Assembly: GCA_903906365.1 (NCBI GenBank)
Contig: CAIVKC010000069.1
Coordinates: forward strand, 1 to 64,000
Reading direction: 5' to 3'
Length of the DNA: 64,000 nt
Source: an uncultured Bacteroidota bacterium
GTDB lineage: Bacteria > Bacteroidota > Bacteroidia > Chitinophagales > Chitinophagaceae
In this document: positions 1-18,022 of the stretch, piece by piece
Layout: the number at the start of each line of letters is the position of its first letter
How positions within the stretch are numbered: position 1 is the stretch's first letter
The notes under the pieces: model-generated
Seen by the model: the letters and a program-made list of their open reading frames with translations, nothing else
Databases searched by the model: none
What the model was told of the DNA's origin: nothing
Translations under genes and position numbers: made by a program

Positions 1-1
1 A

Positions 2-223
2 ACACCCGCCACCATTGGCAACGGATACGCTGATAAAAAGAACGGCATTTTGCCGAAGGATCTTTGGGAAGCTTCGCAGGTTATGAAAAAATCGGCCATT
101 GCCGCTGAATTGTTCGGGGATACCTTTGTGGAGCATTTCACCGGTACCCGGGAGTGGGAATGGAAACAGTTTTCAAAAGTGGTGACCGATTGGGAACTCC
201 GCAGGTATCTTGAAATCATATAG
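2..223 (+). CDS. Glutamine synthetase family protein, C-terminal end (partial)
   Basis: The gene runs in from the left edge; only the last 73 codons are present. The visible residues include TPATIGNGYADKKNGILPK, a TGTREWEW segment and the ending DWELRRYLEII, which fit the C-terminal helices of a GlnA/PuuA-type ligase. The family joins glutamate to ammonia or an amine using ATP. Downstream lie an alcohol dehydrogenase, a gamma-glutamyl hydrolase and an aldehyde dehydrogenase. I therefore infer that this is a gamma-glutamyl-amine or -aminoalcohol ligase rather than the nitrogen-assimilating enzyme. The active site lies outside the window, so this rests on context. The stop is TAG at 221-223. 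Confidence 0.75.
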   Translation, partial: TPATIGNGYADKKNGILPKDLWEASQVMKKSAIAAELFGDTFVEHFTGTREWEWKQFSKVVTDWELRRYLEII

Positions 224-275
224 TTGGCCTTTGCAGGAACTACTGGTTATAAAGAATAAAAAACAAAATAATATA

Positions 276-1427
276 ATGATTGATTTTAATGTAATCCGGC
301 AATACAATTTCCCTACCACCATTCGTTTTGGGGCCCATGCCATCCTGGAATTACCGGATCATCTGGCCAGCCAGGGTTTGCATAAACCGCTCCTGGTTAC
401 AGACCCCATGGTAGCGCAGCTGGATTTTTTTAAAAAAATAACAGGAAGGCTGCAGGCTAAATCCATTTCAACTGAGGTATTCTCCTCCATACATAAAAAC
501 CCTGTCAAAACAGACGTGCTCACCGGAGGGGACCAATTCAGGGAAACCGACCGGGATTGCATCATCGGAATTGGGGGAGGCGCTGCCATGGATGTGGCAA
601 GGGCAATAGTGCTGCGGGTGAATCACCACCGCGATTTATTTGATTATGACGACCTCATTGGAGGAGATCAATATGTTACTGAGCCTGTTCCGTATTTCAT
701 AACGGTTCCCACAACCAGTGGTACGGGCAGTGAGGTGGGCAGAAGCGCCATTATTTCCGAAGATGATACCCACCGCAAAAGAATCCTATTTTCCCCCAAA
801 TTGCTGGCAAAAATTGTCTATGCCGACCCCATGCTTACCATGGAATTGCCGCCTTTCATCACGGCTGCAACCGGCATGGATGCCCTGACCCACAACCTGG
901 AAGCCTATGTGGCCAAAGGATTTCATCCCATGGCGGAGGGAATCGCCCTGGAAGGCATCTCACTCATAAATGCATCCATAGCCGGTGCTGTAAACCAACC
1001 TACCCTGGAGGGGAGAGCCAAGATGATGATCGCTTCGCTCATGGGTGCAGTGGCATTTCAAAAGGGGCTGGGAGTGGTGCATTCACTGGCCCATCCACTT
1101 TCCTCCCTGCTGGATACCCACCATGGTCTGGCCAATGCCGTTAACCTGCCTTACGGGATGCGGTTCAATGTAGAGGGATTTGAAGACAAATTCAGGAAAA
1201 TCGCCAGGGCCATGGAATTAAAGGATGAAAATGCAGCAGCAGTTATTGAACGCCTGTTCGCCTTGAACGCAGAGCTAAGTCTCCCCGTGCATCTGCGAGA
1301 TATTGGAGTCAAACAGGAACATATTGAAACGCTTTCTGATCTCGCTTTTGCTGATTTTTGCCATCCCAATAATCCCAAACCGGTTTCCAGGGAAGATTTC
1401 AAAAAGCTCTACCTGGAGGCCTTGTAA
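276..1427 (+). CDS. Iron-containing alcohol dehydrogenase
   Basis: This 383-residue protein belongs to the group III (Fe-dependent) alcohol dehydrogenases, cytosolic NAD(P)-dependent enzymes that interconvert alcohols and aldehydes. Visible signatures are the nucleotide-binding GIGGGAAMDVARA, the PTTSGTGSE motif, the metal region GMDALTHNLEAY, and the histidines in SLAHPLSS and DTHHGLANAV. An earlier in-frame ATG at 210 overlaps the end of the upstream gene, but the family normally starts close to MIDFNVIRQYNFP, so ATG 276 is chosen. Five bases separate it from the next gene, so the two are probably one transcript. Between a glutamine-synthetase-like ligase and an aldehyde dehydrogenase, it would oxidise a gamma-glutamylated amino alcohol. 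The substrate is inferred. Confidence 0.88.
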   Translation: MIDFNVIRQYNFPTTIRFGAHAILELPDHLASQGLHKPLLVTDPMVAQLDFFKKITGRLQAKSISTEVFSSIHKNPVKTDVLTGGDQFRETDRDCIIGIGGGAAMDVARAIVLRVNHHRDLFDYDDLIGGDQYVTEPVPYFITVPTTSGTGSEVGRSAIISEDDTHRKRILFSPKLLAKIVYADPMLTMELPPFITAATGMDALTHNLEAYVAKGFHPMAEGIALEGISLINASIAGAVNQPTLEGRAKMMIASLMGAVAFQKGLGVVHSLAHPLSSLLDTHHGLANAVNLPYGMRFNVEGFEDKFRKIARAMELKDENAAAVIERLFALNAELSLPVHLRDIGVKQEHIETLSDLAFADFCHPNNPKPVSREDFKKLYLEAL

Positions 1428-1432
1428 TTGCT

Positions 1433-3511: not shown

Positions 3512-3516
3512 TCCTT

Positions 3517-3564
3517 CCCTGGAGGCAACGCCATAAGTCCGCGGATTTCTGATGGCCTCCGGGG
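3517..3564 (+). terminator. Possible hairpin after the gamma-glutamyl cluster
   Basis: CCCTGGAGGC and GCCTCCGGGG can pair over ten positions (one G-T pair) around a loop of about 28 bases, a few bases after the stop codon at 3511. No run of T follows, so it is a weak terminator candidate, or only a transcript-end stem. Confidence 0.3.
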
Positions 3565-3605
3565 TAGAGGATAATAGTAAATACCAGAATTCTGCAACTA
3601 TTCTA

Positions 3606-3614
3606 TAGCTTTGC
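3606..3614 (+). promoter_or_regulatory. Bacteroidota -7 box before the first response regulator
   Basis: TAGCTTTGC matches the Bacteroidota -7 consensus TAnnTTTG exactly and lies 17 bases before the start codon at 3631. No clear TTTG is present at -33. It suggests housekeeping-sigma transcription of the regulator with a very short leader. Confidence 0.5.
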
Positions 3615-3630
3615 ATTCACTTCTATATTC

Positions 3631-4977
3631 ATGTCTACAGGAAATATCTTACTCATTGATGACGAGGATAAATTGCGGACGCTCCTAAAGCGCATCATCA
3701 GCCTTGATGGATTTACCATATTTGAGGCAAACAGCCTGAAGGCTGCCAACAAGGTCTTGGAAAAAGAGCATATTGACGTGGCCCTTTGTGACGTAAAACT
3801 TCCCGACGGCAACGGGGTTGAATTCACACAGCAGGTAAAATCCAGGTTTCCGGATGTGGAAATTATCATCACTACGGCCTATGGCAATATTGCAGACGGG
3901 GTGCAGGCCATGAAAAACGGTGCTTTTGACTACCTGCTCAAAGGCGATGACAATGATAAAATAATTCCCCTGCTTGAAAAAGCGATTGAAAAAGTACGGT
4001 TACACAAACGAATAGAGCAATTGGAAAAGCAGGTCGGAAAGAAGTACAGTTTTGAAAATATCCTCGGCGAATCCTCCCTGATCATTGAGGCGGTCAATCT
4101 TGCCAAAAAAGTGGCACCCACCGACGCCACAGTTCTTTTACTTGGTGAAACGGGCACGGGAAAGGAAGTCTTTGCCCAATCCATCCATAACGGAAGCAAA
4201 AGAGCGGGGAAACCCTTTTTGGCCCTCAATTGCAGTGCCTTTGGTAAAGAATTGCTTGAAAGCGAAATATTCGGTCATAAGGCAGGTGCCTTTACCGGTG
4301 CCATAAAAGACAAAAGAGGTCTCATTGAAGAAGCTGACGGGGGCACCCTTTTTCTGGATGAAATCGGAGAAATGTATTTTGACCTGCAGTCAAAACTGCT
4401 TCGGGTCCTTGAAAATAACGAATTCATAAAAGTAGGTGACACCAAATCCACCCACGTCAACGTCCGCATCATCGCTGCCACCAACCGGGACCTCCAGCAG
4501 GAGGTCCGCAACGGGCACTTCAGGGAAGACCTCTTTTACAGATTAAATGTATTTACCATCCAGTTACCCGCTTTAAGGGAGCGAAAAAAAGACATACCGC
4601 TGCTCGCGGAATATTTCCTGCATCTTTTCTCACAGAAAACCAACCAGCGGATAGAGGGGATGACAAAAGAGTTCCAGGATCACCTCCAACAACATGACTG
4701 GAAAGGTAATATCAGGGAGCTCAAAAATGTCATGGAAAGAGCCGTGATTTTGGCGAGCACGCCCCTGCTCACGGTAGATAGCCTTCCGTTGGAAATGCAA
4801 ACAAACAGTTATAAATCGCAGTCGCTCTCCGCCTTTGACCTGGCGAGCGTGGAAAAACTTCATATCCAGCGCGTTTTGAATCATACCAAGGGAAATAAGA
4901 CAGAGACCGCCAAATTGCTCAATATCGGACTGACCACTCTTTATAGAAAAATAGAAGAATTTGGCTTATCCCATTAA
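3631..4977 (+). CDS. Sigma-54-dependent response regulator (NtrC/AtoC type), copy 1
   Basis: The 448 residues show a receiver domain (acidic pair D10/D11, phospho-acceptor D54, T82, K104), then an AAA+ sigma-54 activation domain (Walker A GETGTGKE at 172-179, GAFTGA loop at 219-224, GGTLFLDEIGEM, RIIAATNRDL, FREDLFYRLN), and a Fis-type helix-turn-helix at the C-terminus. When phosphorylated, such proteins form rings that open sigma-54 RNA polymerase promoters. A close paralog lies at 8350-9708 and aligns with it without gaps through the receiver. The next gene is a porin behind a 795-base gap with candidate binding sites and a sigma-54-like element, so the porin is the likely target. The partner kinase is not adjacent; the one at 16230 is a candidate. 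Confidence 0.93.
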   Translation: MSTGNILLIDDEDKLRTLLKRIISLDGFTIFEANSLKAANKVLEKEHIDVALCDVKLPDGNGVEFTQQVKSRFPDVEIIITTAYGNIADGVQAMKNGAFDYLLKGDDNDKIIPLLEKAIEKVRLHKRIEQLEKQVGKKYSFENILGESSLIIEAVNLAKKVAPTDATVLLLGETGTGKEVFAQSIHNGSKRAGKPFLALNCSAFGKELLESEIFGHKAGAFTGAIKDKRGLIEEADGGTLFLDEIGEMYFDLQSKLLRVLENNEFIKVGDTKSTHVNVRIIAATNRDLQQEVRNGHFREDLFYRLNVFTIQLPALRERKKDIPLLAEYFLHLFSQKTNQRIEGMTKEFQDHLQQHDWKGNIRELKNVMERAVILASTPLLTVDSLPLEMQTNSYKSQSLSAFDLASVEKLHIQRVLNHTKGNKTETAKLLNIGLTTLYRKIEEFGLSH

Positions 4978-5355
4978 ATTTTAATCCCCGAAAGGTAAGT
5001 CTAAAAGAATGCCCACTGTGAAAACAGCGGGCCATTAACCAAATTGCGATACTAAGAAATCGTTCACACCCAAACCCCCGTCGGGTCTTTATTCCCAAAC
5101 CAAGAAGTTTGTAGTAATATCTTGTTGCCCTTACCCAGATGCCGCTTCAATGAAGGTCGAATATTACAGTTTTTATCGAACCATTTAGCCAACTGAGCAA
5201 GGGTTCCTTTCTTTTGCCGGCTTTGGCCAAAGGGTTACAAATTCTGTACCGCCTTGGCCTACATACATCCCCCATCCCCGCTGCATGCAATACTGTCCTG
5301 CAATACAGCCTGCTGTTTGAAACTACCTCTTTTTCCCTCCTGTCAGCACCGGGGC

Positions 5356-5389
5356 TTCCAAAATGAAAATTTCATTCCAAAATGAAAAT
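5356..5389. repeat. Tandem direct repeat upstream of the porin (candidate activator sites)
   Basis: TTCCAAAATGAAAAT occurs twice, at 5356-5370 and 5375-5389, with a period of 19 bases, close to two helical turns. The core CCAAAATGAAAA resembles the pair upstream of kdp (10002-10013 and 10022-10033), giving the shared form CCRAWWTGAAAR. A related inverted copy, TTTTCATTATGG, lies at 5496-5507. The repeat is seen directly; its role as an enhancer for the sigma-54 regulators is inferred. Confidence 0.5.
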
Positions 5390-5613
5390 ATTTTTCAAAT
5401 TATTATATACGCAAATATTAAAAAAAACATAGATCCGGGTCATTACTTTAAAATCGGCTATACACTCCCTTTGTGTTTATCGATTTGACAATACATTTTC
5501 ATTATGGTATTATCCATGGGACCTGTCTAAAAAAATGACAGCGATTGTATGAAGAACCAGAACCCTTGCTGATAAAGGTTTTTCGTATGAGTGGCCATCC
5601 TGTCACCAGGCTC

Positions 5614-5629
5614 TGGTATGTAATTAGCA
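5614..5629 (+). promoter_or_regulatory. Candidate sigma-54 (-24/-12) promoter for the porin gene
   Basis: TGGTATGTAATTAGCA has the required GG-N10-GC spacing (GG 5615-5616, GC 5627-5628) and agrees with TGGCACGNNNNTTGCA at nine of twelve fixed positions. It lies about 145 bases before the porin start and downstream of the tandem repeat. GG-N10-GC is common by chance, so the call depends on context. Confidence 0.4.
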
Positions 5630-5772
5630 ACAGGGTATGCGGGTTTACACATCTCAGTAAACCATTTTTAAAACGATGGCTTTGCGAATGAATGGCAGGC
5701 ACCCATTTTTGGTAATGGCCTGATTGTTTCAAATAATAACACATTACCAAACTAATTAATTAATCACTCATT

Positions 5773-7368
5773 ATGAACAAGCATTCATTTATTTGCGTCT
5801 TATCATTCCTGTATGTATTCTGTGGTTATAGCCAGGAAAAATCACTGGCCAGTTTCGAGGGCAGAGCAGGCAGCGAGGTGGCTGCTGCTTCCCTGACCGC
5901 TGAAAAAACGTCTACTCCCAGCCGGCTAGTACCGGCCAGCGAAAAGCCCGGTTTATTTTCAAGGCTATTCAAACCCCTGCATTTTACACAAAATGACACC
6001 AATCTCACCGCCAGCGCAGACACAGTTGCCAGTGAACCATTTGCATTCGGAGATTTTTCCTGGCTCAACGGGGCCAGCCGTAAAACATCCCCTCCTGCTT
6101 TTGATTCCAAGTATTTTACCGGGGATGTGACTTTCGACTTAAATTATACCCATTCCTATAATCATCCCATCGATAACACCGTTGTCGGATCGACTGCCCT
6201 TGCCCGCAACAATGAACTGCAGCTATCCTTTGCAGGGATTGGAGGGGATATACATGTGAATAATGTTCGCGGCCGTATCATGATGCAATTTGGTACGCGC
6301 TCTACGGTAGTGCCCCGCAATGACGGAAGCTCCTATAAAGGCCAGTATGATCTGCAAACGATCTACCGCTATATCAGTGAGGCTTATGCAGGATACCATT
6401 GGAACAAATGGCATGGCATCAACCTGGATGCTGGCATTTTCATGTCATACATAGGATTGTTTTCCTACAATAATTTTGAAAACTGGGGGTATCAGCCATC
6501 CTATACCTCCGACAATACCCCCTGGTTTTTCAACGGTCTGCGTCTTCAGACCTTTCCAACCGATAAACTCAAAGTGGAATTCTGGCTGATAAACGGCTGG
6601 CAGAGTTATGGCATGTTCAACCACTCTCCGGGAGTAGGCGTGTCCATATATTACCGGCCAAAGGAAAATGTGGACTATGTCTTCAACAACTATTATGGCA
6701 AAGATGACCAGGGCGCCCCGGACCGCTACCGGCTCCACCTGGATTACAGTTACCAACGCCGTTACTACAACAATCCGCATGCAAAATTCTTAAAAAAGGC
6801 TGCCTTTTCCCTGACCACGGATTTCGGCTTTGAAAATGGCGACGGCGTTACGCCATTTGGAACCAAATCGGCCGCTGACAGACCAGGAAAACCTGCGCAG
6901 AATTTCATCAGCGGAATGTTTTACAACCGCCTGTGGCTTTCAGACAAATTTGCCTGGACTTTTGGCGGGGGCTATATGCATAATCCCGGTCAATACCTGG
7001 TGCTTGCTCCCACCGGATATGCCGATACCCTTTACCAGGCGCAAACCGGCCCGGGATCGACATTTGATGCCTGGGATTTTTCGACCACCTTTGAATACAT
7101 GGCTGGTCAGAACATGACCCTTAAACTCGAATTTGTCCACAGGGCAATTCAAAACATCGGAGCGGCCCCCAATACCACCCCCCTAACGGGGTATTTTGCC
7201 GGACCCGGCGGAGTCACCTCACCTTCAGGATATGCCAATACGGGGGGATACACTTATAGTTCCAGCGGTGCCTCGGTAGCCCCGCCACTGAGCAGCTGGG
7301 GTGGATGGCAGCCTGATCTGCAGAAAGCAGAATCCAGGATCATACTGGCCTTCCTGGTCAGATTCTAA
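5773..7368 (+). CDS. Outer-membrane beta-barrel porin, BBP2/OmpL-like
   Basis: The 531-residue protein begins with a signal peptide (MNKHSFICVLSFLYVFCGYSQ), then a low-complexity stretch to about residue 90, then a region rich in alternating aromatic and polar residues (SEAYAGYHWNKWHGINLDAG, NFENWGYQPSYTSDNTPWFF, LINGWQSYG). That pattern matches the putative beta-barrel porin-2 family. It ends ILAFLVRF, with a terminal phenylalanine as usual for barrel proteins. It lies inside a potassium-uptake island between two sigma-54 regulators, so I infer that it lets K+ or an accompanying solute through the outer membrane. The family assignment is fairly firm; the substrate is a guess from location. 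Confidence 0.8.
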   Translation: MNKHSFICVLSFLYVFCGYSQEKSLASFEGRAGSEVAAASLTAEKTSTPSRLVPASEKPGLFSRLFKPLHFTQNDTNLTASADTVASEPFAFGDFSWLNGASRKTSPPAFDSKYFTGDVTFDLNYTHSYNHPIDNTVVGSTALARNNELQLSFAGIGGDIHVNNVRGRIMMQFGTRSTVVPRNDGSSYKGQYDLQTIYRYISEAYAGYHWNKWHGINLDAGIFMSYIGLFSYNNFENWGYQPSYTSDNTPWFFNGLRLQTFPTDKLKVEFWLINGWQSYGMFNHSPGVGVSIYYRPKENVDYVFNNYYGKDDQGAPDRYRLHLDYSYQRRYYNNPHAKFLKKAAFSLTTDFGFENGDGVTPFGTKSAADRPGKPAQNFISGMFYNRLWLSDKFAWTFGGGYMHNPGQYLVLAPTGYADTLYQAQTGPGSTFDAWDFSTTFEYMAGQNMTLKLEFVHRAIQNIGAAPNTTPLTGYFAGPGGVTSPSGYANTGGYTYSSSGASVAPPLSSWGGWQPDLQKAESRIILAFLVRF

Positions 7369-7428
7369 GTGAGATAAAGTATATACAGCAAACTAGTCAA
7401 GCCAAAGAAGCGCTCAAAACACACTACC

Positions 7429-7689
7429 ATGGAAAATATGGATACAGGTGCCGAAGACATGGTTCTCCGGATCAAGGAAATAATGGTATCCAAACTGGGT
7501 CTGCAGGAAAACCAGCTGATCCAGGAGGCCAGCTTCAGTAATGACCTCCATATTGATTCCCTGGATCTGATTGAATTGCATATGGATCTGGAAAAAGAGT
7601 TCAACATCACCATTCCGGATGAGGAAGGAGAGAAACTGACCACGGTTGGTTCTGTGATCAACTATATCAACCGTAAGGTCACCCATTGA
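7429..7689 (+). CDS. Acyl carrier protein
   Basis: This acidic 86-residue protein has the acyl-carrier fold signature: a DSLD motif with S44 as the expected 4'-phosphopantetheine site, preceded by NDLHI and followed by the helix LIELHMDLEKEFNITIPDEE. Acyl carrier proteins hold growing or activated acyl chains as thioesters in the cytosol. No fatty-acid, polyketide or acyltransferase gene lies beside it. It sits 60 bases after the porin gene and just before a secreted unknown, so it is probably a specialised second carrier rather than the main AcpP. What it carries cannot be told from the sequence. Confidence 0.88.
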   Translation: MENMDTGAEDMVLRIKEIMVSKLGLQENQLIQEASFSNDLHIDSLDLIELHMDLEKEFNITIPDEEGEKLTTVGSVINYINRKVTH

Positions 7690-7749
7690 TCATTTTATAA
7701 AAATGAAAATCAATGCTATTTATTCATGTCACCATCAAAAAAATATGTT

Positions 7750-8343
7750 ATGAAACCGATTATAATATCAGTTCTTATTATCGCCATTGTTTCCCTGTCC
7801 TTTACCCGTAAATACGGTGAGGGCCATTTCGACAAGGGCGGTTTATATGCCAGTTCCGGTGATTTTCTTAAACACAGGTTAACCTATGCCTTTGAATGCA
7901 GCGCCAAAGAGGGCTACATACATTTCAATGGCCTGCTCGGTGCTGACAAGGGTTATGTGATGGTCAGGGGTGAGAAACATCCCTTTTCCAAAGAAAGCGT
8001 CTACGGATACCGGGACTGTCAATCCCACGATTACAGAATCTATCTAAAAAGAGCATATCAAATTCTGGATACTGCCGGATTTTACCTCTATTACCAATAT
8101 GAATATGAGCAACCGGTATATGGAAAGGGTATGGTAAAAGCAGACCACTATTATTTTAGTACCACCCCTGAAAGCAAACTGCAAAGAATGACCCTGGAAA
8201 ATCTGAAGATCGCCTTTGCGGAAAACACCAAATTCCAATATGCACTGGACGCCGGTTTCCGCTCAGACAATGAACTGATCAGTTATGACCGGTATTTGCA
8301 CAGTTACAAAATAAAATACTTATTCGGTCAAAGTATCAAATAA
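7750..8343 (+). CDS. Secreted or membrane-anchored protein of unknown function
   Basis: I do not recognise this 197-residue protein. It starts with a hydrophobic segment (PIIISVLIIAIVSLSF), which is a signal peptide or anchor, followed by a Tyr-rich soluble part with two cysteines. ATG 7750 is preferred over the in-frame ATG at 7726 because it puts the hydrophobic segment right at the N-terminus. It lies between the acyl carrier protein and the second regulator, whose ATG follows the stop by only six bases. That spacing suggests the porin, carrier, unknown and regulator genes share a transcript. A role with the porin or in envelope sensing is possible but unsupported. Confidence 0.7.
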   Translation: MKPIIISVLIIAIVSLSFTRKYGEGHFDKGGLYASSGDFLKHRLTYAFECSAKEGYIHFNGLLGADKGYVMVRGEKHPFSKESVYGYRDCQSHDYRIYLKRAYQILDTAGFYLYYQYEYEQPVYGKGMVKADHYYFSTTPESKLQRMTLENLKIAFAENTKFQYALDAGFRSDNELISYDRYLHSYKIKYLFGQSIK

Positions 8344-8349
8344 TTGCCG

Positions 8350-9708
8350 ATGCCATCTGGAAATATTTTGCTAATTGATGACGAAAGCAAGCTGCGCAGC
8401 CTGCTGAAAAGGATCATTTCCCTGGAGGGATATTCCGTATTTGAAGCCGCAGACATTAAGTCAGCTTTGAGGATTTCCACCAGGGAAGACATTGAGGTAA
8501 TCGTTTGTGACGTGAAACTCCCCGATGGCAACGGCATCGACTTTACACGAACCATTAAAAACAAACTGTCAGCCGTTGAAATCATACTTTTGACCGCATT
8601 TGGCAACATTGCGGATGGCATCCTGGCCATGAAAAGCGGGGCTTTTGATTACATTACCAAGGGGGATGACAATCATAAACTGGTGCCCTTGATTGACCAT
8701 GCCATGGAAAAGGCCAGGTTGCAAAAAAGGGTAAAACAGTTGGAAAAACAGGTAACACAGGCCTTTAGTTTTGACCATATCATTGGAGAGTCCGCGATCA
8801 TACGAAGTACCATAGAACTTGCCAGAAAAGTCGCCTCCACAGACACGACGGTTTTGTTATTGGGAGAAACAGGCACGGGCAAAGAGCTTTTTGCCCGTGC
8901 CATTCATGGCTCAAGCCCCAGGGCGGGTAAGCCTTTTATTGCCCTGAACTGCAGTTCTTTTTCCAAACACCTGCTGGAAAGTGAAATATTCGGGCATAAA
9001 CATGGTGCCTTCACCGGGGCGGTAAAAGACAAAAAGGGTTTAATTGAGGAGGCCCACGGAGGAACCCTATTCATGGATGAAATTGGGGAAATGCATATTG
9101 ATCTCCAATCCAAATTACTCAGGGTCCTGGAAACCAAAGAATTCATTAAGGTCGGTGATACAAGCTCCACCAAGGTGGATGTTCGGTTCATTTCAGCTAC
9201 CAACCGTGACCTAAGGGAGGACATCAAATCAGGTAAATTCAGGAGTGATCTTTATTACCGGTTACATGTTTTTACCATTTCGATGCCCCCCCTCAGGGAA
9301 AGGAAAAGGGATATCCCCTTGATTGCGAACTATTTTCTGCAATTGTTCGCCAAAAAGATGAATAAGAATATTATGGGAATGAGCAGCGGGTTTCTGCGTT
9401 ATCTGGAAGATCAGTATTGGAAAGGAAACATCAGGGAGTTGAAAAATGTGATTGAAAGAGCTGTTATTCTCTCAGACCAGGAGATGCTTCAGGTAGAGGA
9501 CCTTCCTTTTGAGTTTCAATTAGTTCAGCATGAAAACAACCATTCCCTATCCCTGCTCGATCTGGCCTCTGTAGAAAAAACCCATATCCAGCGTATCCTG
9601 CACTTCACCAAAGGCAATAAGGCGGAGGCGGCCCGGTTGCTCAATATTGGCCTGACGACCATTTATCGAAAAATGGAAGCCTACGGGATCCGGTATCCAC
9701 CTGAATAA
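8350..9708 (+). CDS. Sigma-54-dependent response regulator (NtrC/AtoC type), copy 2
   Basis: The 452 residues repeat the plan of the regulator at 3631: receiver with D10/D11, phospho-acceptor D54 and the ITKGDD lysine; AAA+ domain with GETGTGKE, GAFTGA and GGTLFMDEIGEM; Fis-type helix-turn-helix ending NIGLTTIYRKMEAYGI. ATG 8350 is chosen; a TTG two codons earlier is also in frame. The gene is the last before the kdp region. Standard KdpE, an OmpR-type regulator, is absent from the window, so I infer that this protein replaces it and activates the sigma-54-like promoter at 10137. Helix-turn-helix differences from copy 1 are small, which fits shared or overlapping binding sites. Confidence 0.93.
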   Translation: MPSGNILLIDDESKLRSLLKRIISLEGYSVFEAADIKSALRISTREDIEVIVCDVKLPDGNGIDFTRTIKNKLSAVEIILLTAFGNIADGILAMKSGAFDYITKGDDNHKLVPLIDHAMEKARLQKRVKQLEKQVTQAFSFDHIIGESAIIRSTIELARKVASTDTTVLLLGETGTGKELFARAIHGSSPRAGKPFIALNCSSFSKHLLESEIFGHKHGAFTGAVKDKKGLIEEAHGGTLFMDEIGEMHIDLQSKLLRVLETKEFIKVGDTSSTKVDVRFISATNRDLREDIKSGKFRSDLYYRLHVFTISMPPLRERKRDIPLIANYFLQLFAKKMNKNIMGMSSGFLRYLEDQYWKGNIRELKNVIERAVILSDQEMLQVEDLPFEFQLVQHENNHSLSLLDLASVEKTHIQRILHFTKGNKAEAARLLNIGLTTIYRKMEAYGIRYPPE

Positions 9709-9996
9709 TAGAAGGGCCCCCAAACCTCCTTATTCTGCTGCTGTCATAAATTCCCCGTCCCAATACCCTCACTTGACATTCTAGCCAAAAAAATAAGTTT
9801 ATCCCGTATAATACCCGTAACTTATACCGTCACACTTTTCTGGCCCGGGCAATTTCTCATGGGCTGATTACACGCTTACCATGAAAATGGCCTCTCTGGT
9901 TGCATGGATTTGATAGTGCGCCGGATATAGGATACACCTCTCAGCGACCAAGGGGTGAAGAAAGCGCCTCGTGGGGAGTTGTGTCAAAAAAAGAGT

Positions 9997-10033
9997 CCCT
10001 GCCGAATTGAAAAAGACCCTGCCAATTTGAAAG
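9997..10033. repeat. Imperfect 20-base tandem repeat upstream of kdp (candidate activator sites)
   Basis: CCCTGCCGAATTGAAAA and CCCTGCCAATTTGAAAG start at 9997 and 10017, a period of 20 bases. Their cores, CCGAATTGAAAA and CCAATTTGAAAG, match the pair upstream of the porin. They end about 105 bases before the sigma-54-like element, a normal distance for an NtrC-type enhancer. GACCC/GGGTC arms also flank the second copy. Alternatively, this is the end of a decayed insertion sequence whose termini carry repeated transposase sites. Confidence 0.5.
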
Positions 10034-10136
10034 GGTCCGTCGGGGTATATTCCCCAGGACCGTAAGCACCCCGATCCCCTGAAACCAATGACTGTATTGA
10101 CCTTAGCTATACCCCCCTTGATTATCCCATTACATT

Positions 10137-10152
10137 AGGCATCTCCTTTGCA
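10137..10152 (+). promoter_or_regulatory. Candidate sigma-54 (-24/-12) promoter of the kdp operon
   Basis: AGGCATCTCCTTTGCA has GG at 10138-10139 and GC at 10150-10151, giving the GG-N10-GC spacing. It keeps GGCA and TTGCA of the consensus TGGCACGNNNNTTGCA, nine of twelve fixed positions. It follows a sigma-54 activator gene and a tandem repeat, and precedes the Kdp genes on the same strand. Confidence 0.55.
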
Positions 10153-10258
10153 ACCAGTGTTCCGACAATGCTCCGGGCTTATTGTTCCAACAGGTCCAGG
10201 CATGTAAGAAATTCCGGCGGAACGTATAGAAAGGCATCGTTGGGACTGCCGGTCCGGT

Positions 10259-10277
10259 CGCCTGGCCTAGTCAGGCG
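10259..10277 (+). promoter_or_regulatory. Hairpin in the kdp leader
   Basis: CGCCTG and CAGGCG pair perfectly around a seven-base loop, 19 bases before the first small frame of the operon. No T run follows, so it is unlikely to be a simple terminator. It could protect or occlude the start of the message; no known riboswitch was recognised. Confidence 0.3.
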
Positions 10278-10295
10278 TTCCAGCTATTGACCAAC

Positions 10296-10427
10296 ATGAA
10301 ACACATGCGATTCATGAATCTGGACAAAAGTCATATAAAGGAAAAGCTGGTGGTGGTTCTGGCCTGGTTATGGGCTCTTTCCATGGTATACCTGGTGTAT
10401 ATCAAATTCAAGATGCTATTTCATTGA
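10296..10427 (+). CDS. Small single-span membrane protein (43 residues) ahead of kdpF
   Basis: ATG 10296 opens a 43-codon frame, MKHMRFMNLDKSHIKEKL followed by a hydrophobic stretch (VVVLAWLWALSMVYLVYI) and a basic end. It reads as one membrane helix with a charged N-terminal arm. I do not know a family for it. Support comes from position (first frame after the candidate promoter, two more tiny membrane frames directly behind) and from its membrane-protein composition. Inner ATGs at codons 4 and 7 could also be the start. It may be a Kdp accessory peptide; it could also be chance. Confidence 0.5.
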   Translation: MKHMRFMNLDKSHIKEKLVVVLAWLWALSMVYLVYIKFKMLFH

Positions 10428-10450
10428 AAACAGGACTTAAAACTGAACAT

Positions 10451-10534
10451 ATGCTCACGATACTTCTTTTGCTGGCAGCCTTTATTTGTTTTGCGATATT
10501 TTTTAAATCCATTGATTTCTTCGATAAAATCTAA
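10451..10534 (+). CDS. Tiny membrane protein (27 residues) directly before kdpF
   Basis: This 27-codon frame begins MLTILLLLAAFICFAIFF and ends KSIDFFDKI: one hydrophobic helix and a short charged tail. KdpF starts four bases after its stop codon. The size and pattern resemble KdpF itself, so it may be a second KdpF-like stabilising peptide of the KdpFABC complex. It is below the length normally annotated. The start, stop and tight spacing support a real gene, but the function is inferred. Confidence 0.6.
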   Translation: MLTILLLLAAFICFAIFFKSIDFFDKI

Positions 10535-10538
10535 ACTC

Positions 10539-10616
10539 ATGACTATTTTATTCATTTTATCCATCCTGGTATTCCTATACCTGTGTTACGTTCTGGTAAA
10601 ACCCGAAAAATTCTAA
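10539..10616 (+). CDS. kdpF: Potassium-transporting ATPase subunit F
   Basis: The 25-residue protein MTILFILSILVFLYLCYVLV-KPEKF has the KdpF form: one transmembrane helix ending in a short KP-containing tail. In known Kdp systems KdpF is a lipid-like peptide that stabilises the KdpABC complex in the inner membrane. It precedes kdpA by 75 bases, the usual gene order. It is too short for most gene finders. Identification rests on size, sequence pattern and position. Confidence 0.85.
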   Translation: MTILFILSILVFLYLCYVLVKPEKF

Positions 10617-10691
10617 CCGTACAGGAAAGCCGGGAAATTATTCCGGTAAGTTTTAATTATACAACCATTTACAGTTTTTCAAATCCTAGTT

Positions 10692-12392
10692 ATGAATACA
10701 GAACTTATAGGGGTCGCGTTAATGTTTGTAGCAGCCATTTTACTGGCCATTCCACTGGGCCGTTACATAGGGAAAGTCTATGAAGGGCATACTACCTGGC
10801 TCGATCCGCTATTCAACCCGCTGGACAGGTTAATCTTCAAGGCCGGTGGCATAAGGCCTGAGAAGGAAATGAACTGGAAACAGCACCTCCTTGCCCTATT
10901 GGTCATCAATGTGGTTTGGTTTCTGCTGGCCATGTTTGTTTTGATGAATATGAACTGGTTGCCGTTGAACCCGGATCATAATCCCTCCATGGGGGCAGAC
11001 CTCGCCTTCAATACGGCAGTCAGTTTTATTTCCAATACCAATATTCAGCATTATTCCGGGGAATCAGCCGTTTCCTACCTGGGTCAGCTTACCCTGATGC
11101 TGTTTCAATTTACCAGTGCGGCCATTGGTATGGCTGCCTGTGCGGTAGTATTTCATGCGATGAAGGAAAGGAGCAGCGAAAAACTCGGGAATTTTTATGT
11201 GTATTTCGTAAAATCCTGCACTAGAATTTTACTGCCTGTTTCCATTTTGGTGGCCATTATGCTGGTATTTAACGGCGTACCCATGACCTTCAAGGGGAAA
11301 GATCAATTCATCTCCATGCAGGGAGACACCGTCCAGGTTAGCCGCGGTCCTGCAGCTGCAATGGTAGCCATAAAACAACTGGGTACAAACGGCGGAGGAT
11401 TCTTTGGAGCCAATTCCGCACACCCTTTTGAAAACCCGACCTATTTCACCAATATGGTTGAAAACATTTCAATTATATTGATACCCATCGCGCTCATTTT
11501 TGCTTTGGGATATGTTTTAAACCGGAAAAGACTGGCCTGGGTTATATTCTTTGTCATGACAATCGGATTTTTGTCGTTCCTATTGCCTACTATGTACTTT
11601 GAGATGAAGGGCTCCCCCGGCATTGCACATATGGGCATATCACAACCCATGGGAAATATGGAAGGAAAGGAAGTGCGTTTTGGCTCGGCCGCTTCAGCTT
11701 TCTGGGGGATCACCACAACAGTAACCTCCAACGGGTCCGTAAACGCAATGCATGACAGTTTTATGCCGCTGTCGGGCATGTTTACGATGCTGGGTATGAT
11801 GGTTAACTCCTTTTACGGAGGGGTGGGAGTAGGTTTTCTTAATTTTTACATTTTCATCATCATTGCCGTATTCATCAGTGGATTGATGGTCGGGCGTACG
11901 CCTGAATTGCTGGGCAAAAAAATTGAAGCCAAGGAAATGAAGATTGCGGCTATGATCGCCCTGCTTCATCCCCTGCTTATTCTGGCCGGAACGGCCCTTG
12001 CCTCCCATCTATACGCAGCAGATCCGAAAGCCTATGCCGGATGGCTTTCCAATCCCGGATACCATGGCTTTTCTGAAATGCTCTATGAATATTCCTCCGC
12101 ATCTGCCAACAACGGGTCTGAATTTGCGGGACTGGGTGCCAATACCCTGTTCTGGAATATTACCGATGGGCTGGTCATGCTGCTTTCCCGCTTCCTTCCC
12201 ATTATTGGCCCGGTGGCGATTTCAGGTATACTGGCAAAGAAAAAATACATTCCCCAAAGCGCCGGGACGCTGAAAACAGATACGGGCACATTCGGGATTA
12301 TGGTATTTGCCGTAATCATCATTGTTGCAGCCCTGTCCTTTTTCCCTTCCCTGGCCCTGGGGCCTATAGCCGAATATTTTAGCACGAAATAA
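10692..12392 (+). CDS. kdpA: Potassium-transporting ATPase subunit A (K+ channel subunit)
   Basis: The 566-residue, many-span membrane protein is the K+-binding and translocating subunit of the high-affinity KdpFABC pump. The four selectivity-filter segments are visible: [42 protein letters not shown] and [10 protein letters not shown]. The length equals the family norm. In E. coli it passes K+ through an internal tunnel to KdpB when external K+ is scarce. It follows kdpF and is separated from kdpB by 14 bases, so the subunits are co-transcribed. Confidence 0.97.
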
Positions 12393-12406
12393 TAAATACC
12401 CAAAAG

Positions 12407-14452
12407 ATGAAAAGAAATATAAATACCCGGTTATTTGAGGCGCCGCTGGTTAAAGAGGCTCTGAAAGAGTCCTTTATCAAACTGGACCCCAGAAAAATGG
12501 TACACAATCCCGTCATGTTTACCGTAGAAATTGGTACAGGGGTTATGCTGGCTGTTTGCCTGTGGATTCTGGGTGGCGAAAAGTCCCAGGGAAGTCTTGC
12601 CTACAACCTGATCATATTCTTTGTCCTGCTGCTGACGCTGCTGTTTGCCAATTTCGCCGAGGCCATTGCAGAAGCCAGGGGTAAGGCCCAGGCAGACAGC
12701 CTGCGGAAAACCAGGGAGGACACCCCTGCCAAAAAGATATTCGCCGTGGGGGAAATTTTTGTCAATGAAGTGAAGGTGGTGCCTTCCTCACAATTAAAGA
12801 AAGGGGACTTCTTTTTATGTGAAGCAGGAGATACCATTCCGATGGATGGGGAGATAGTAGAGGGACTGGCCACCATTGATGAAAGTGCCATTACCGGTGA
12901 GAGCGCCCCAGTTATCAGGGAATCGGGGGGTGATAAATCCAGCGTTACCGGTGGTACCAAGGTACTTTCAGACAAAATAAAAGTAAGGGTTACTACCGAA
13001 CCGGGTGAAAGCTTCCTGGACAAGATGATTGCCCTGGTAGAGGGAGCTTCCCGGCAAAAGACTCCCAATGAAATAGCGCTTACCATTTTACTGGCTGGTT
13101 TTACGCTGATATTCATTATTGTTTGTGTGACCCTGAAGCCCTTTGGCGATTATGCCAATACGCCCATCACCATAGCCGCATTTATCTCACTGTTTGTTTG
13201 TCTTATTCCCACCACTATTGGAGGGCTGCTGAGTGCCATTGGCATCGCCGGAATGGACCGGGCGCTGAGGGCAAATGTTATAACCAAAAGCGGAAAGGCG
13301 GTGGAAACGGCAGGGGACCTGGATACCCTGTTGCTCGATAAAACAGGAACCATTACCATAGGCAACAGAAAAGCCACCCATTTCTGGGCCTCTGCGGGTA
13401 TAGACAGCGCTGCCTTTTTGGAGACATGTACCCTGGCCTCCCTGGCAGACCAAACCCCGGAGGGTAAATCCATAATTGAATTGGCGGGCCTCAATCCCAA
13501 TTCCTTCGAAACAGGCGGAGCCCGTTTCATTGCATTTAGTGCCGAAACCAGGAGCAGTGGAATCGATCTGCCAGGCGGGACAAAAATCAGAAAAGGGGCC
13601 TATGATGCCATCAAAAATATTGCAAGCAGGGCGGGCCATGCATTCCCGGAGGACACGGACCAGAAAGTAAAGGAAATATCCAGTAACGGGGGGACCCCGC
13701 TGGTAGTTAGCCGAAATGAGCAGATCCTGGGAGTCATTGAATTGCAGGACATCATCAAGCCCGGCATTTTTGAGCGATTTGACCGGCTCCGCAAAATGGG
13801 TGTGAAGACGGTCATGGTCACCGGAGACAATCCCCTTACTGCCAGGTACATTGCACAGAAGGCCGGAGTAGATGATTTCATTGCAGAGGCCAAGCCTGAA
13901 GACAAAATGAACTATATTAAAAAGGAGCAGCAGGGAGGAAAACTGGTGGCTATGATGGGTGATGGCACCAATGATGCCCCGGCCTTAGCCCAGGCCGATG
14001 TAGGAGTGGCCATGAACAGCGGGACACAGGCGGCCAAAGAAGCGGGCAACATGGTTGACCTGGACAATGATCCGACCAAACTCATTGAAATTGTTGAAAT
14101 AGGCAAGCAATTGCTCATGACCCGCGGCACGCTGACCACCTTTTCCATTGCCAATGATGTTGCCAAATATTTCGCCATTGTTCCGGCCTTATTTATTGTT
14201 TCCATCCCGGGTTTACAGGCCCTCAATATTATGCATTTGCATAGTCCGGAAAGCGCCATACTGTCAGCGGTGATTTTCAATGCCATTATCATTCCCCTGC
14301 TGATTCCCCTTGCGCTGAGGGGTGTGGCTTATAAACCCATCGGCGCCAGTGCGCTGTTAAGGAGAAACCTGCTGATATATGGCGTTGGTGGTGTCATGAT
14401 ACCCTTTGGAGGCATCAAATTAATTGATTTGCTGGTTAGTCTCTGGTTTTGA
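12407..14452 (+). CDS. kdpB: Potassium-transporting ATPase subunit B (P-type ATPase)
   Basis: The 681-residue P-type ATPase subunit supplies the energy for KdpFABC. Visible motifs are the actuator loop [14 protein letters not shown], the intramembrane [11 protein letters not shown], the phosphorylation site DKTGTIT with D311 as acceptor, and the hinge [24 protein letters not shown] serine of this type is the site of inhibitory phosphorylation in E. coli KdpB; its serine is kept here. The length is normal and no active-site residue seems to be missing. Confidence 0.97.
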
Positions 14453-14487
14453 AAAACAGACCTGATAACCCATTAAAATATTAAATC

Positions 14488-15051
14488 ATGAAACAAATTA
14501 TTTTACCTGCGCTCCGGATCACACTGGTAAGCATCGTTCTTTTTTGCGGAATCTACACCATGGTCATTTGGCTGTTTGCACAATTCAGCCCGGCAAAAGG
14601 GGAAGGGGAAACGATATCTGTCAATGGAAGGACGGTCGGTTATTCACTGGAAGGCCAGCAATTCAATCAGGACCAATATTTTTGGGGCAGGCCTTCAGCT
14701 GCAGGATACAATGCCGCCGGCAGCTCGGGGAGCAACAAGGGTCCGGGCAATCCGGACTTTCTCAAAGACATACAGTCCAGGATTGACAGCTTCCTGGTGC
14801 ATAACCCAGGAACAGCTAAAAAAGATATTCCTTTTGAACTGGTTTCAGCCTCTGGAAGCGGTTTTGACCCTGACTTGTCGCTGGAGGCTGCCTCCATTCA
14901 GGTTCCGAGAATCGCCAAAGCCAGACATCAAACCATAGACAGGATCAAAGCCCTGGTGGAAAACCATTTTCAGCAGCCATTGTTACTCTTGTTGGGCCCC
15001 GGCAGGGTAAACGTTCTTCAGCTGAATGCGGACCTTGACAAACTCAGATAA
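14488..15051 (+). CDS. kdpC: Potassium-transporting ATPase subunit C
   Basis: This 187-residue protein has one N-terminal membrane helix (IVLFCGIYTMVIWLFA) and a periplasmic domain with the KdpC signature FNQDQYFWGRPSAAGYNAA and the GPGNPDFL segment. KdpC is needed for assembly and function of the KdpFABC complex, although its exact mechanistic role is debated. It starts 35 bases after kdpB and completes the transporter genes. Confidence 0.95.
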   Translation: MKQIILPALRITLVSIVLFCGIYTMVIWLFAQFSPAKGEGETISVNGRTVGYSLEGQQFNQDQYFWGRPSAAGYNAAGSSGSNKGPGNPDFLKDIQSRIDSFLVHNPGTAKKDIPFELVSASGSGFDPDLSLEAASIQVPRIAKARHQTIDRIKALVENHFQQPLLLLLGPGRVNVLQLNADLDKLR

Positions 15052-15104
15052 ATTAGGTTAATATCGTTGATTCATCTTAGATTTAAAACCAGATTTTCCA
15101 TGTC

Positions 15105-16229
15105 ATGGCTGACCGAGACCAAAATGTACAGCACTTCCTGCAACTGATCCGCCAGTCAAGGCGGGGTAAATTCAAAATATACATAGGCATGAGTGCCGGG
15201 GTAGGCAAAACCTTCAGAATGCTTCAGGAAGCCCATACCCTGTTGAGAAACGGAGTGGATGTAAAGATTGGCTATATAGAGACCCACAACCGGGAGGAGA
15301 CCAAGTCCCTGCTGGAAGGATTGCCGGTAATACCCAGAAGAACCCTTTTTTACAAAGGCAAAGAACTCGATGAACTCGATGTACAGGCCGTACTAAATCT
15401 CCATCCCGAAGTAGTAATCATCGATGAACTGGCCCATTCCAACATTGAAGGCAGTAAAAATGAAAAGCGCTGGCAGGATGTGATGGAAATTCTGGACGCC
15501 GGTATAAATGTAATCAGTGCCGTAAATATCCAGCACATAGAAAGCCTTCACAAGGAAGTAAAGGCCATTACAGGCGTTGACGTGTCTGAAAGGATTCCCG
15601 ACAGTGTCCTGAAGGAAGCGGATGAAGTGGTTAATATCGACCTGACGGCTGATGAGCTTGTTACCCGCCTGAAGGAGGGCAAAATATACACTTTGGACAA
15701 AATCCAGATTGCGTTGAAGAATTTCTTCCAGTCGGAAAAAATCCTCCAGCTGAGGGAATTGGCCTTAAAGGAGGTGGCCTCCCAGGTGGAGAGAAAAATT
15801 GAAACGGAACTACCCAGGGGGACCCATCTGCGTGCCGAACGATTTATGGCCTGCATCAGCAGTAATTATGAAATTGCCACCAAAGTCATTCGAAAAACAG
15901 CCAGGCTTGCCAGCTATTACCATTCAAAATGGTTTGTCTTATATGTCCAAACCCCAAAGGAGCATGGAGACAGGATAGGGCTGGCAGCGCAAAGGCATTT
16001 AATAAACAACTTCAAACTGGCTACCGAATCAGGCGCCGAGGTGCTGAAAATAAAACAATCCAATATTGCCAAGGCAATCATCGAAATTGCCGAACAAAGG
16101 GAAATCACAACCATTTGCATCGGCAAACCGCATCTTAATTTATTCAGTGTAATTTTGAATACGGCCGTTTTCAATCAACTTTTAAAAAAGCTATCCGCAT
16201 CAGATATTGACGTGGTAATTTTATCTTAG
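15105..16229 (+). CDS. kdpD: Short KdpD: N-terminal sensor domain plus USP-like domain, no kinase
   Basis: The 374 residues match only the cytosolic N-terminal half of KdpD. They contain the KdpD domain with Walker A GMSAGVGKTF at 28-36 and the Walker B-like VVIIDELAHSN, then a universal-stress-protein-like domain from about residue 245 (RFMACISSNYEIATKVIRKT). There is no membrane segment and no histidine-kinase domain. The kinase is the next gene, whose ATG directly follows this stop codon. In full-length KdpD this half binds ATP and tunes the kinase. I infer that it acts here in trans on the partner kinase. This is a natural split, not a truncation, because both halves are complete. Confidence 0.9.
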   Translation: MADRDQNVQHFLQLIRQSRRGKFKIYIGMSAGVGKTFRMLQEAHTLLRNGVDVKIGYIETHNREETKSLLEGLPVIPRRTLFYKGKELDELDVQAVLNLHPEVVIIDELAHSNIEGSKNEKRWQDVMEILDAGINVISAVNIQHIESLHKEVKAITGVDVSERIPDSVLKEADEVVNIDLTADELVTRLKEGKIYTLDKIQIALKNFFQSEKILQLRELALKEVASQVERKIETELPRGTHLRAERFMACISSNYEIATKVIRKTARLASYYHSKWFVLYVQTPKEHGDRIGLAAQRHLINNFKLATESGAEVLKIKQSNIAKAIIEIAEQREITTICIGKPHLNLFSVILNTAVFNQLLKKLSASDIDVVILS

Positions 16230-17933
16230 ATGGGAGTACGTTTAAAAACAAAATTGTCCCTGGGGTTAATATTCCTGTTCCTGGTCATTCTTTTATTTGG
16301 AATACTGGGGATCTTTTACATCAACCGGCTCAGCAATGATGCCCAATTGATTTTGAAAAACAACCACGAATCCCTTGTCTACGCCAACAATATGCTCACT
16401 GCCCTGGAAAACCTGAAAGTGAGAAAAGATGCCCTGGAACAATTTGCCGCCAATCTGAAACTGCAGCAAAAGAACATAACTGAAACCGGAGAAAAGGAAG
16501 CAACGGAGCTGTTAACAAAGAATTTTGGTGAGCTGCTTTCCAACCCGCAGGACCCCAGTAATTACCCTGAAATCAGGCGGTCCCTTTACCGGATCCTGGA
16601 CCTCAATGAGATGGCTATTCTCCGAAAAAATGAAACGGCAAAAAAAACGGCCGACCAGGCCAAATTGGTGCTTACCATCATTTTTACGATCCTCACCCTG
16701 ATTGCATTCACCTTTATCTTCAATCTTCCCGGGATTATTTCCAGTCCAATCAGGAGCCTTTCGGAGGGTATTGCAGAAATTGCCAATAAGAATTACAGTA
16801 AACGCATCTATCTGAAGCAAAGTGATGAGTTTGGAGACCTGGCAAATGCATTCAATATAATGGCCGGAAAATTATATGAATATGAAAGCAGCAACCTGGC
16901 CCAGATCAAATTTGAAAAAAGCCGCATCGAGACTATTATCAATCAGATGAGAGACGGAATTATCGGACTTGACGACAAGAACAATATCCTGTTTTTGAAT
17001 GCAGTGGCCGAAAAACTACTGGGGATCAGGGAATCTGATATCCTGTCCAAATACGCTCCGGATGTGGCCCTGAAAAACGATCTGATGCGTACTTTGCTCC
17101 AGGAACAGGAGGAGAAAACCGAACTCAAGATTTTTGCCGATAATAAGGAAAGCTATTTTATTAAAGACATCCTGAATGTGACCAATAATAACCAGGCCAT
17201 CGGTAAAGTGATCGTCTTAAGAAACATAACGCCCTTTCATGAACTCAATGAGGCAAAAACCAATTTCATTGCAACGGTGAGCCATGAACTGAAGACCCCC
17301 ATTTCTTCCATCAAGATGAGCGCCCAGCTGTTGAACGACGAAAGAATCGGCCCCCTCAATAACGAACAAAAGGAACTGTCCAACAGTATCCAGGATGATG
17401 CGGAAAGGCTGCTGAAAATAACCGGGGAATTGCTGAACATGACCCAGGTTGAAACGGGAAATATCCAACTTAAACTACAAAATACGGCCCCTGAGGTAAT
17501 TGTAGAACAGGCTGTTCAGGCCGTGTTGTTTCAGGCCCAGCACAGGAATATCCGTTTGACAAAGCACCTGGAGCATCATCTCCCCCTGGTACATTGTGAT
17601 GCCGAAAAAACCATTTGGGTACTGATCAATTTTTTAACCAATGCCATTAAATTCTCCCCTGAAAAGATGGAAGTGGAAATCCATGTTTACCAAAAGGGGG
17701 ATTCGGTGGATTTCCTGGTCAGGGATTATGGCAGGGGCATCGAAGGGAAATACCTGCCCAGGATATTCGACCGCTATTTCAAGGTTCCAGGCAGCCAGGA
17801 AAGATCAGGTACAGGGCTTGGACTGGCCATCTCCAGGGAATTTATTGAAGCCCAGGGCGGAACCATCTGGGTTCAGAGTGAACCGGGGGAAGGCAGCAGT
17901 TTCGGTTTCGCCTTTAAAAAATCGGAGGCGTGA
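16230..17933 (+). CDS. Membrane sensor histidine kinase of the kdp operon
   Basis: The 567 residues show a first membrane helix (about 9-31), a periplasmic loop, a second helix (about 147-170), a HAMP linker (SSPIRSLSEGIAEIANKNYS), a PAS-like domain (MRDGIIGLDDKNNILFLN), a HisKA domain with phospho-acceptor H352 in SHELKTP, and an ATPase domain with NFLTNAIKFSP, RDYGRGI and GTGLGLAIS. The start codon touches the stop of the short KdpD, so the two are translationally coupled. It probably autophosphorylates in response to potassium or turgor signals and passes phosphate to one or both sigma-54 regulators upstream. That pairing is inferred. Confidence 0.92.
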   Translation: MGVRLKTKLSLGLIFLFLVILLFGILGIFYINRLSNDAQLILKNNHESLVYANNMLTALENLKVRKDALEQFAANLKLQQKNITETGEKEATELLTKNFGELLSNPQDPSNYPEIRRSLYRILDLNEMAILRKNETAKKTADQAKLVLTIIFTILTLIAFTFIFNLPGIISSPIRSLSEGIAEIANKNYSKRIYLKQSDEFGDLANAFNIMAGKLYEYESSNLAQIKFEKSRIETIINQMRDGIIGLDDKNNILFLNAVAEKLLGIRESDILSKYAPDVALKNDLMRTLLQEQEEKTELKIFADNKESYFIKDILNVTNNNQAIGKVIVLRNITPFHELNEAKTNFIATVSHELKTPISSIKMSAQLLNDERIGPLNNEQKELSNSIQDDAERLLKITGELLNMTQVETGNIQLKLQNTAPEVIVEQAVQAVLFQAQHRNIRLTKHLEHHLPLVHCDAEKTIWVLINFLTNAIKFSPEKMEVEIHVYQKGDSVDFLVRDYGRGIEGKYLPRIFDRYFKVPGSQERSGTGLGLAISREFIEAQGGTIWVQSEPGEGSSFGFAFKKSEA

Positions 17934-17975
17934 TCCAAATAAATCATATTGTTATTCAATGATTTATAAGGGAAC

Positions 17976-18005: not shown

Positions 18006-18022
18006 TATCATTAAATCAAGCG

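Follow-up and report, generated by a model that had tools for sequence, protein, structure and literature searches.

Gene organization of the kdp and porin locus

A 64,000-nucleotide stretch (the window: positions 1 to 64,000 of contig CAIVKC010000069.1, assembly GCA_903906365.1) from an uncultured Chitinophagaceae bacterium of the Bacteroidota carries genes for potassium (K+) uptake (kdp), an outer-membrane porin and two paralogous regulators, with a short paired DNA motif upstream of both the porin and kdp. This motif, and its possible role as the operator of a K+-uptake regulon, are the subject of this work. The genes are on the plus strand. RR1, an NtrC-type response regulator (3631..4977), is followed by a BBP2-family outer-membrane porin (5773..7368; PF07642, E 1.8e-41) and by the rest of the porin cassette: an acyl-carrier-like, PP-binding protein (7429..7689; PF00550), a protein to which Pfam assigned no function (no match; 7741..8343, start inferred, longest frame from 7726), with similar genes at loci L047, L070 and L133, and RR2, an RR1 paralogue with the same recognition helix (8350..9708, start inferred, longest frame from 8344). 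Downstream are kdpA, kdpB and kdpC (10692..15051; TIGR00680 and TIGR01497 over cut-off, KdpC over the cut-off of PRK00315 and just below those of other KdpC models), a KdpD-like sensor lacking a kinase domain (15105..16229; PF02702, and NF038185, “KdpD-like non-kinase potassium sensor”, at 357 bits, below its cut-off of 550), and a separate membrane histidine kinase (16230..17933; HAMP, PAS, HisKA and HATPase domains), which gene order makes the likely partner of RR1 and RR2. In both regulators the receiver, sigma-54 activator AAA+ and Fis-type helix-turn-helix domains were over cut-off (PF00072, PF00158, PF02954), and both translations contain GAFTGA, the sigma-54 contact loop of NtrC-family activators. 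The genome has one RpoN gene (PF04552, E 2e-52).

A paired palindrome upstream of kdp and its conservation

A sequence-only reading of the window had described a 12-base direct motif in tandem before the porin (5358-5369 and 5377-5388) and before kdp (10002-10013 and 10022-10033), and the four 12-mers were found at exactly these positions. Their pattern, CCRAWWTGAAAR, matched five times in the window where 0.53 matches were expected, and none of 100 shuffles reached five; the fifth match was a lone site at 22480-22491. Genome-wide (4,657,888 bases, 69 contigs) there were 43 single matches and 13 for the reversed-pattern control; pairs at 6-10 nt spacing numbered two, both in the window (control, 0). 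As CCRAWWTGAAAR had been drawn from these very sites, conservation was the fair test. The exact pair pattern matched in 4 of 98 genomes, own included, because it was too narrow. Two of the pairs matching it (L003 and L005, from genomes G045 and G008) lay inside unrelated genes and were left out as regulon members.

Comparison of the sites indicated that the operator is a 15-bp palindrome, about TTTYCAWWWTGRAAA, rather than the 12-bp direct motif, the exact repetition of which was confirmed. It usually occurs twice, in tandem copies about 20 bp apart (copies spaced by 18-22 bp, with 20 or 21 the commonest). The kdp pair (9999..10033, no strand assigned) has its sites, spaced by 20 bp, at 9999-10013 and 10019-10033; a longer dyad, GACCCT...AGGGTC, is centred on the second of them.

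The gene kdpA was present in 44 of the 98 genomes (own included), and 40 stretches around it were taken from relatives (L068 was cut before kdpA). The set of kdp upstream stretches numbered 40 including the window: in 29 an NtrC-type regulator gene lay within 2.5 kb and marked the start, and the others comprised the final 1200 nt (only 100 nt in L063). In the 29 regulator-to-kdpA gaps, a de novo motif search of width 16, into which the motif of the sequence-only reading was not entered, returned a kdpF coding signal first and then TTTCATTTTGaaAgGG / CCcTttCAAAATGAAA; at width 34 the search of the same gaps listed leader coding signals only. The degenerate pair YCRWWWTGR-N9-13-YCRWWWTGR was found on either strand in 28 of the 40 kdp upstream stretches, window included (shuffle mean 0.08, maximum 1). 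The remainder of the kdp loci (653,508 bases) held seven plus-strand matches, all K+-linked: five before porins (two in the window and one each in L047, L055 and L062), one before kup (L048) and one before the L068 kdpA. One further strict pair, on the minus strand of L062, was inside a gene. Sixty new kdp loci were then picked by hand, sequence unseen and with longer contigs favoured, from 77 new full-length loci; the pair score was at least 19 in 49 and at least 21 in 38 of them, and none of three shuffles of each locus reached 21. The operator was not found in the three genomes of other families whose kdp locus was read (L036, L043, L046). A chance or low-complexity repeat was ruled out by this conservation and by the shuffles.

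Operator pairs and gene context of the porin

Two pairs, neither assigned to a strand, precede the porin, which departs from the single pair per target that had been described and that holds for kdp. Pair A (5355..5388) comprises palindromes at 5355-5369 and 5374-5388, and pair B (5477..5510) comprises sites at 5477-5491 and 5496-5510, in both cases 19 bp apart. The “near copy in reverse” noted earlier at 5496-5507 is real, with one mismatch, but since the site is palindromic it is actually the second half of pair B. The gene order of L047 matches that of the window (RR1, porin, acyl-carrier-like gene, the gene without a Pfam match, RR2, kdp). The syntenic porin carries a pair in both relatives in which the regulator-to-porin gap was read, L047 (two pairs, the second weaker) and L062 (one pair), and pair B is placed relative to the promoter as its counterparts there: in all three, a -24/-12-like element follows the gene-proximal pair, with its GG 105-107 nt past the end of the pair. 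In the window this putative sigma-54 promoter (5614..5629, plus strand) reads TGGTATGTAATTAGCA (GG-N10-GC), 107 nt after pair B, and its counterpart in L047 and L062 is TGGTACATTTTTGGCA. The earlier proposal of one operator for a regulon with porin and kdp is borne out, as far as sequence comparison can tell, by the pair being kept before kdp and the syntenic porin.

A gene similar to the porin (pieces 23-55% identical) was also seen between kdpC and the sensor genes in 11 of the 40 relatives’ loci (L036, L043, L044, L046, L061, L065, L067, L069, L070, L072 and L073), which supports a link between the porin and K+. At position 2001 of L133 an operator-like pair (E 0.013) was seen before a cassette of the acyl-carrier-like, unassigned and RR2 genes; its source genome (G024) is 97% complete, and kdpA was not found there.

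Profile search for further sites

A profile was built, from sequence only, on 25 pairs (from kdp and porins, with a single kup pair, from genome G018). Its best match in the genome of the window, at 26.5 bits and outside the training set, was the region upstream of kup (G000:C39:30030-30065), which encodes a K+ transporter (PF02705). The kdp pair (25.4 bits, in the training set), porin pair A (23.9 bits, in the training set) and pair B (18.2 bits, outside it) came next, followed by a match of 14.6 bits (E 0.19); the best 150 of 5474 first-look candidates were scored, so weaker places may be missed. The regulon, which had been described as two-part and does include porin and kdp, would therefore be three-part in this genome, with kup as well.

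The same profile was run on 58 genomes including that of the window, with 117 candidates scored in each and strand duplicates collapsed by hand. Forty distinct sites reached E<=1e-3, and 34 of them lie before kdp, kup or a BBP2 porin; the counts were 17 kdp, 12 kup plus one assigned to kup by gene order, four porin and six other. Many of the kdp and porin sites were training members; all but one of the kup sites were not. The site assigned by gene order (L111) is at a contig end, beside a gene that neighbours kup elsewhere, and the kdp site of L112 also has an oppositely running gene. Sites before kup were present in 15 of the 33 genomes of the window’s genus (kup genes without a match there are outside this count). 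Twenty weaker matches (E 1.1e-4 to 0.018) were fetched: kup was beside three, a BBP2-like porin beside two, the acyl-carrier-like, unassigned and RR2 cassette beside one, and no K+ gene beside 14. Three of the six other sites at E<=1e-3 were inside genes in other families (L103, L108, L115). The remaining three (L113, L120, L123), in the window’s genus, are strong intergenic operator-like pairs before genes of unknown function with no informative neighbour, and are possible further targets.

A putative sigma-54-like promoter at phased spacing

The sigma-54 -24/-12 consensus is close to TGGCAC-N5-TTGC, with GG-N10-GC at its core. The putative kdp promoter (10137..10152, plus strand), AGGCATCTCCTTTGCA, lies 107 nt after the kdp pair and, like that of the porin, keeps GG-N10-GC; many relatives read TTGG or TTGA at -12. 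The element common downstream of the pairs was GGYAY-N5-TTG, and the form GG[CT]A[CTA]-N4-5-TTG was counted across 45 stretches running from pair to gene (24 from kdp, 15 from kup and 6 from porins), all chosen for having a pair. It occurred 60-200 nt from the pair start in 39 of the 45 (shuffle mean 1.5, maximum 6) and within 120-145 nt in 32 (shuffles 0.28, maximum 2). Measured from the pair end in these 39 cases, the distance was 100-107 nt in 30, 81-83 in four, 60-61 in two, 70 in one (L037) and 95 in one (L118), L068 not being measured. The pairs thus stand upstream at a helically phased distance, as would be expected of activator sites; because the form was settled on with the sequences in view, the spacing carries more weight. 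When that form was applied unchanged to the 60 new loci, 35 had the element at 41-159 nt, with 22 at 100-107, four at 81-83 and two at 61 (a count made without a shuffle control).

Covariation of operator and recognition helix

RR1 and RR2 share the recognition helix LLNIGLTT[LI]YRK, and the three other activators of the genome with a readable helix (L220, L225, L226) differ; L223 and L224 were not readable. Among the regulators linked to kdp, most have LLNIGLTTLYRK, L037, L069 and L072 have GLAT, and L070 and L073 have GIAT, and the operators of these five loci have TTCTCA...TGAGAA-like arms. One helix residue tracks the operator class, T with TGAAA and A with TGAGA. A prediction of the helix, written beforehand for six genomes with a distant regulator, was correct in all six (GLAT in G047, GIAT in G033, SLAT in G037, and GLTT in G045, G055 and G041). 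Among the first 40 loci with a known regulator, the operator was altered in 8 of 8 loci with A, five of which had given rise to the idea, and unaltered in 28 of 28 loci with T and an operator score of at least 19. The other four T loci (L036, L043, L046, L074) had no convincing operator, L036 and L046 being altered by regular expression alone; with these two counted against the association and kinship ignored, Fisher’s test gave 5.9e-7.

A second prediction was made for the 60 new loci, with a helix pattern in the script slightly wider than in the written prediction. At a score of at least 19 and with the helix read, the operator was altered in 14 of 16 A loci and unaltered in 28 of 28 T loci (Fisher 1e-9, kinship ignored), a combined agreement of 42 in 44. 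Seven of the new loci had no regulator in the stretch, the helix of L299 (GAAT, altered operator) was missed by the expression, and two couples are near-copies (L263 and L297; L283 and L284). All 23 new loci with a GLTT helix have the pair.

In the regulator tree RR1 is nearest, by tree path and without a well-supported fork, to the regulators at relatives’ kdp loci, and RR2 falls in a small separate branch with the regulators of L047 and L070 (support 100/100). Most simply, the stretch between RR1 and kdp would have gained, by insertion or duplication, a porin cassette carrying a second regulator, and each pair would follow a regulator gene for that reason.

Leader peptides and neighbouring genes

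Three small membrane open reading frames (10296..10616, plus strand) make up the kdp leader: one of 43 amino acids (10296-10427), one of 27 amino acids (10451-10534) and KdpF (10539-10616). The 27-amino-acid membrane peptide (MLTILLLLAAFICFAIFFKSIDFFDKI) is directly before kdpF. By eye, 37 of the 40 kdp leaders have a similar frame ahead of kdpF, the exceptions being L051, L065 and the cut L063; the peptide is possibly an extra small Kdp subunit. The 43-amino-acid peptide, with a single helix, lies between the sigma-54-like promoter and kdp, and short frames like it are present in some kdp leaders (L040, L049, L053, L062, L070) and, by eye in the DNA, before kup in L098, L106 and L125. Elsewhere in the window, an aldehyde dehydrogenase and a class-I glutamine amidotransferase-like domain (Peptidase_C26) are fused in a single frame at 1433-3511, which adjoins a gene for an iron-type alcohol dehydrogenase; in L042, L055 and L062, too, the regulator is preceded by similar genes.

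A proposed sigma-54-dependent K+-uptake regulon

The paired motif is read here as an enhancer (upstream activating sequence) of a sigma-54-dependent K+-uptake regulon, with RR1 and RR2 as its predicted binders, at a probability of roughly 0.85. The KdpD-like non-kinase protein, together with the separate histidine kinase, would detect low K+, and the kinase would phosphorylate the NtrC-type RR1 and RR2. Regulator dimers would occupy the two 15-bp palindromes, about two helical turns apart (conservation defines the site, and the helix-operator covariation suggests the binding), and would gather on a single face of the DNA and reach, by looping, the sigma-54 polymerase at the -24/-12 promoter phased downstream, the element and spacing of which are observed and the activity presumed. 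The putative targets in this genome are two inner-membrane systems, the K+ pump kdp and the K+ transporter kup, together with the BBP2 porin, through which K+ may cross the outer membrane (this specificity is a guess); RR2, being downstream of the porin, could provide positive feedback. Activation is favoured over repression because the sites are upstream of a sigma-54-like promoter and the proteins have the GAFTGA loop.

Several results weigh against this enhancer reading. The strict pair was absent from 12 of the 40 kdp stretches (one, L063, holding only 100 nt), and 11 of the 60 new loci scored below 19. Twenty-five of these 60 were without the promoter pattern and nine more had it only at other distances; the pattern was also absent from three of the six porin entries, namely both window pairs, which have TTAGCA in place of TTG, and L047, entered with its distant pair. 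Among the 12 new loci with an IALTT helix, five reached a score of 19 and 10 showed one CTTTCAWWWTGAAAG-like site, not a clear pair (L264, L267, L272, L273, L277, L278, L298, L303, L307 and L315). The A-helix loci L294 and L301 had no altered operator, and a tree-aware sign test found two to three well-supported independent helix changes, nearly all in the expected direction and too few for significance. The prediction of an altered operator before kup in A-helix genomes failed (0 of 30 kup genes, 22 genomes): 27 scored below 19, and three were marginally above it with unaltered arms. Twenty-seven of the proteins were 53-64% identical to the window genome’s Kup, and the three closer ones (75-83%) were also without an altered site. 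The kup gene is therefore a candidate target in the window’s lineage only (15 sites). Binding, transcription and the response to K+ are predicted here from sequence.

The main alternative divides the duty, RR1 acting on the porin and RR2 on kdp, each through its own adjacent operators and with no shared regulon. Such an arrangement would suit the position of each pair behind its own regulator gene and the separate branch of RR2, but the recognition helices of the two are identical apart from L/I and I/M beside the core, and the 3 kb read around kup (L076) contain its operator but no regulator gene. Single-regulator kdp loci in relatives, regulators being counted in the fetched kdp locus only, carry kdp and kup sites (G018) or kdp and porin sites (G026). 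Divided duty is accordingly considered unlikely, though it deserves more weight than what follows. The site might instead be bound by something else, either a repressor or a Fis-type activator of another kind, its nearness to the regulators being incidental; palindromic AT-rich sites are common among repressors, and the match of site to regulator is itself drawn from sequence. The operator nevertheless covaries with the helix of the kdp-linked regulator, in cases predicted beforehand included, and keeps a characteristic spacing to the sigma-54-like promoter, which makes a different factor improbable. Functionless AT-rich repeats, a chance duplication or an RNA element in the leader hardly seem credible: the motif is AT-rich with common single copies (the 43 in the genome), and regulator and operator may have been duplicated along with the porin cassette, but the site is conserved across the family against the shuffle controls, is upstream of the proposed start site, and no known RNA family in Rfam was over threshold in window positions 1-20000.

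Taken beyond this locus, the enhancer reading could extend to a family-wide shift of K+ control from KdpE to a sigma-54 activator that drives, in the window’s lineage, both outer-membrane (BBP2 porin) and inner-membrane (Kdp, Kup) passage of K+, with a single helix residue (T or A) as the main determinant of DNA specificity, changed several times together with the operators. The chances of this wider proposal are about even. If the enhancer reading is right, the K+ regulon of these bacteria would use a different transcription mechanism (sigma-54, with ATP-dependent activation) and an outer-membrane porin would be tied to K+ import; the loci would also provide a natural series of operator-helix pairs for measuring the evolution of specificity in Fis-type activators.

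Comparison with known systems

Kdp is the textbook case of KdpD/KdpE control. As in E. coli and others, the K+ pump operon of the window adjoins two-component genes and a KdpD-type sensor domain is present. Here, in contrast, the regulators linked to kdp belong to the NtrC-type sigma-54 activators and their sites are palindromic; the KdpD-like protein lacks a kinase domain of its own (PF02702 only), the kinase being a separate gene. KdpE is described in one report as a winged-helix protein whose target consists of two direct-repeat half-sites, AT-rich and 6 bp long (PMC3264566). No OmpR-type (winged-helix) KdpE was among the kdp-linked regulators, no search for KdpE being made in the rest of the genome, and a sigma-54/NtrC-type K+-uptake regulon appears, from sequence comparison, to stand in place of KdpE within one family of Bacteroidota. 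A truncated KdpD with a separate kinase and regulator is already known: according to a report on Deinococcus radiodurans, KdpD is cut to its N-terminal half there and is accompanied by a separate kinase and response regulator (PMC5716572), an arrangement like that of the window; the terms NtrC and OmpR are absent from that text, and in the passages seen “sigma” occurs only as a supplier’s name.

No report of sigma-54 or NtrC-type control of kdp in Bacteroidota was found in the open-access literature, as judged by titles and abstract starts among the matches listed. In the available text of a paper on sigma-54 functions, kdp is mentioned only for E. coli, through PTS-Ntr (PMC3162934), and in that of another only in a table of iron-responsive genes (PMC10434189). 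A further close parallel lies with the enhancers of the NtrC family. NtrC at glnA uses paired palindromic sites upstream of a GG-N10-GC sigma-54 promoter, as the system described here seems to do, and the AAA+ domain, GAFTGA loop and Fis-type helix-turn-helix are common to both; K+ uptake rather than nitrogen, and a different operator sequence, set the present system apart. Sigma-54 enhancer control is itself known, and its application to K+ uptake would be what is new.

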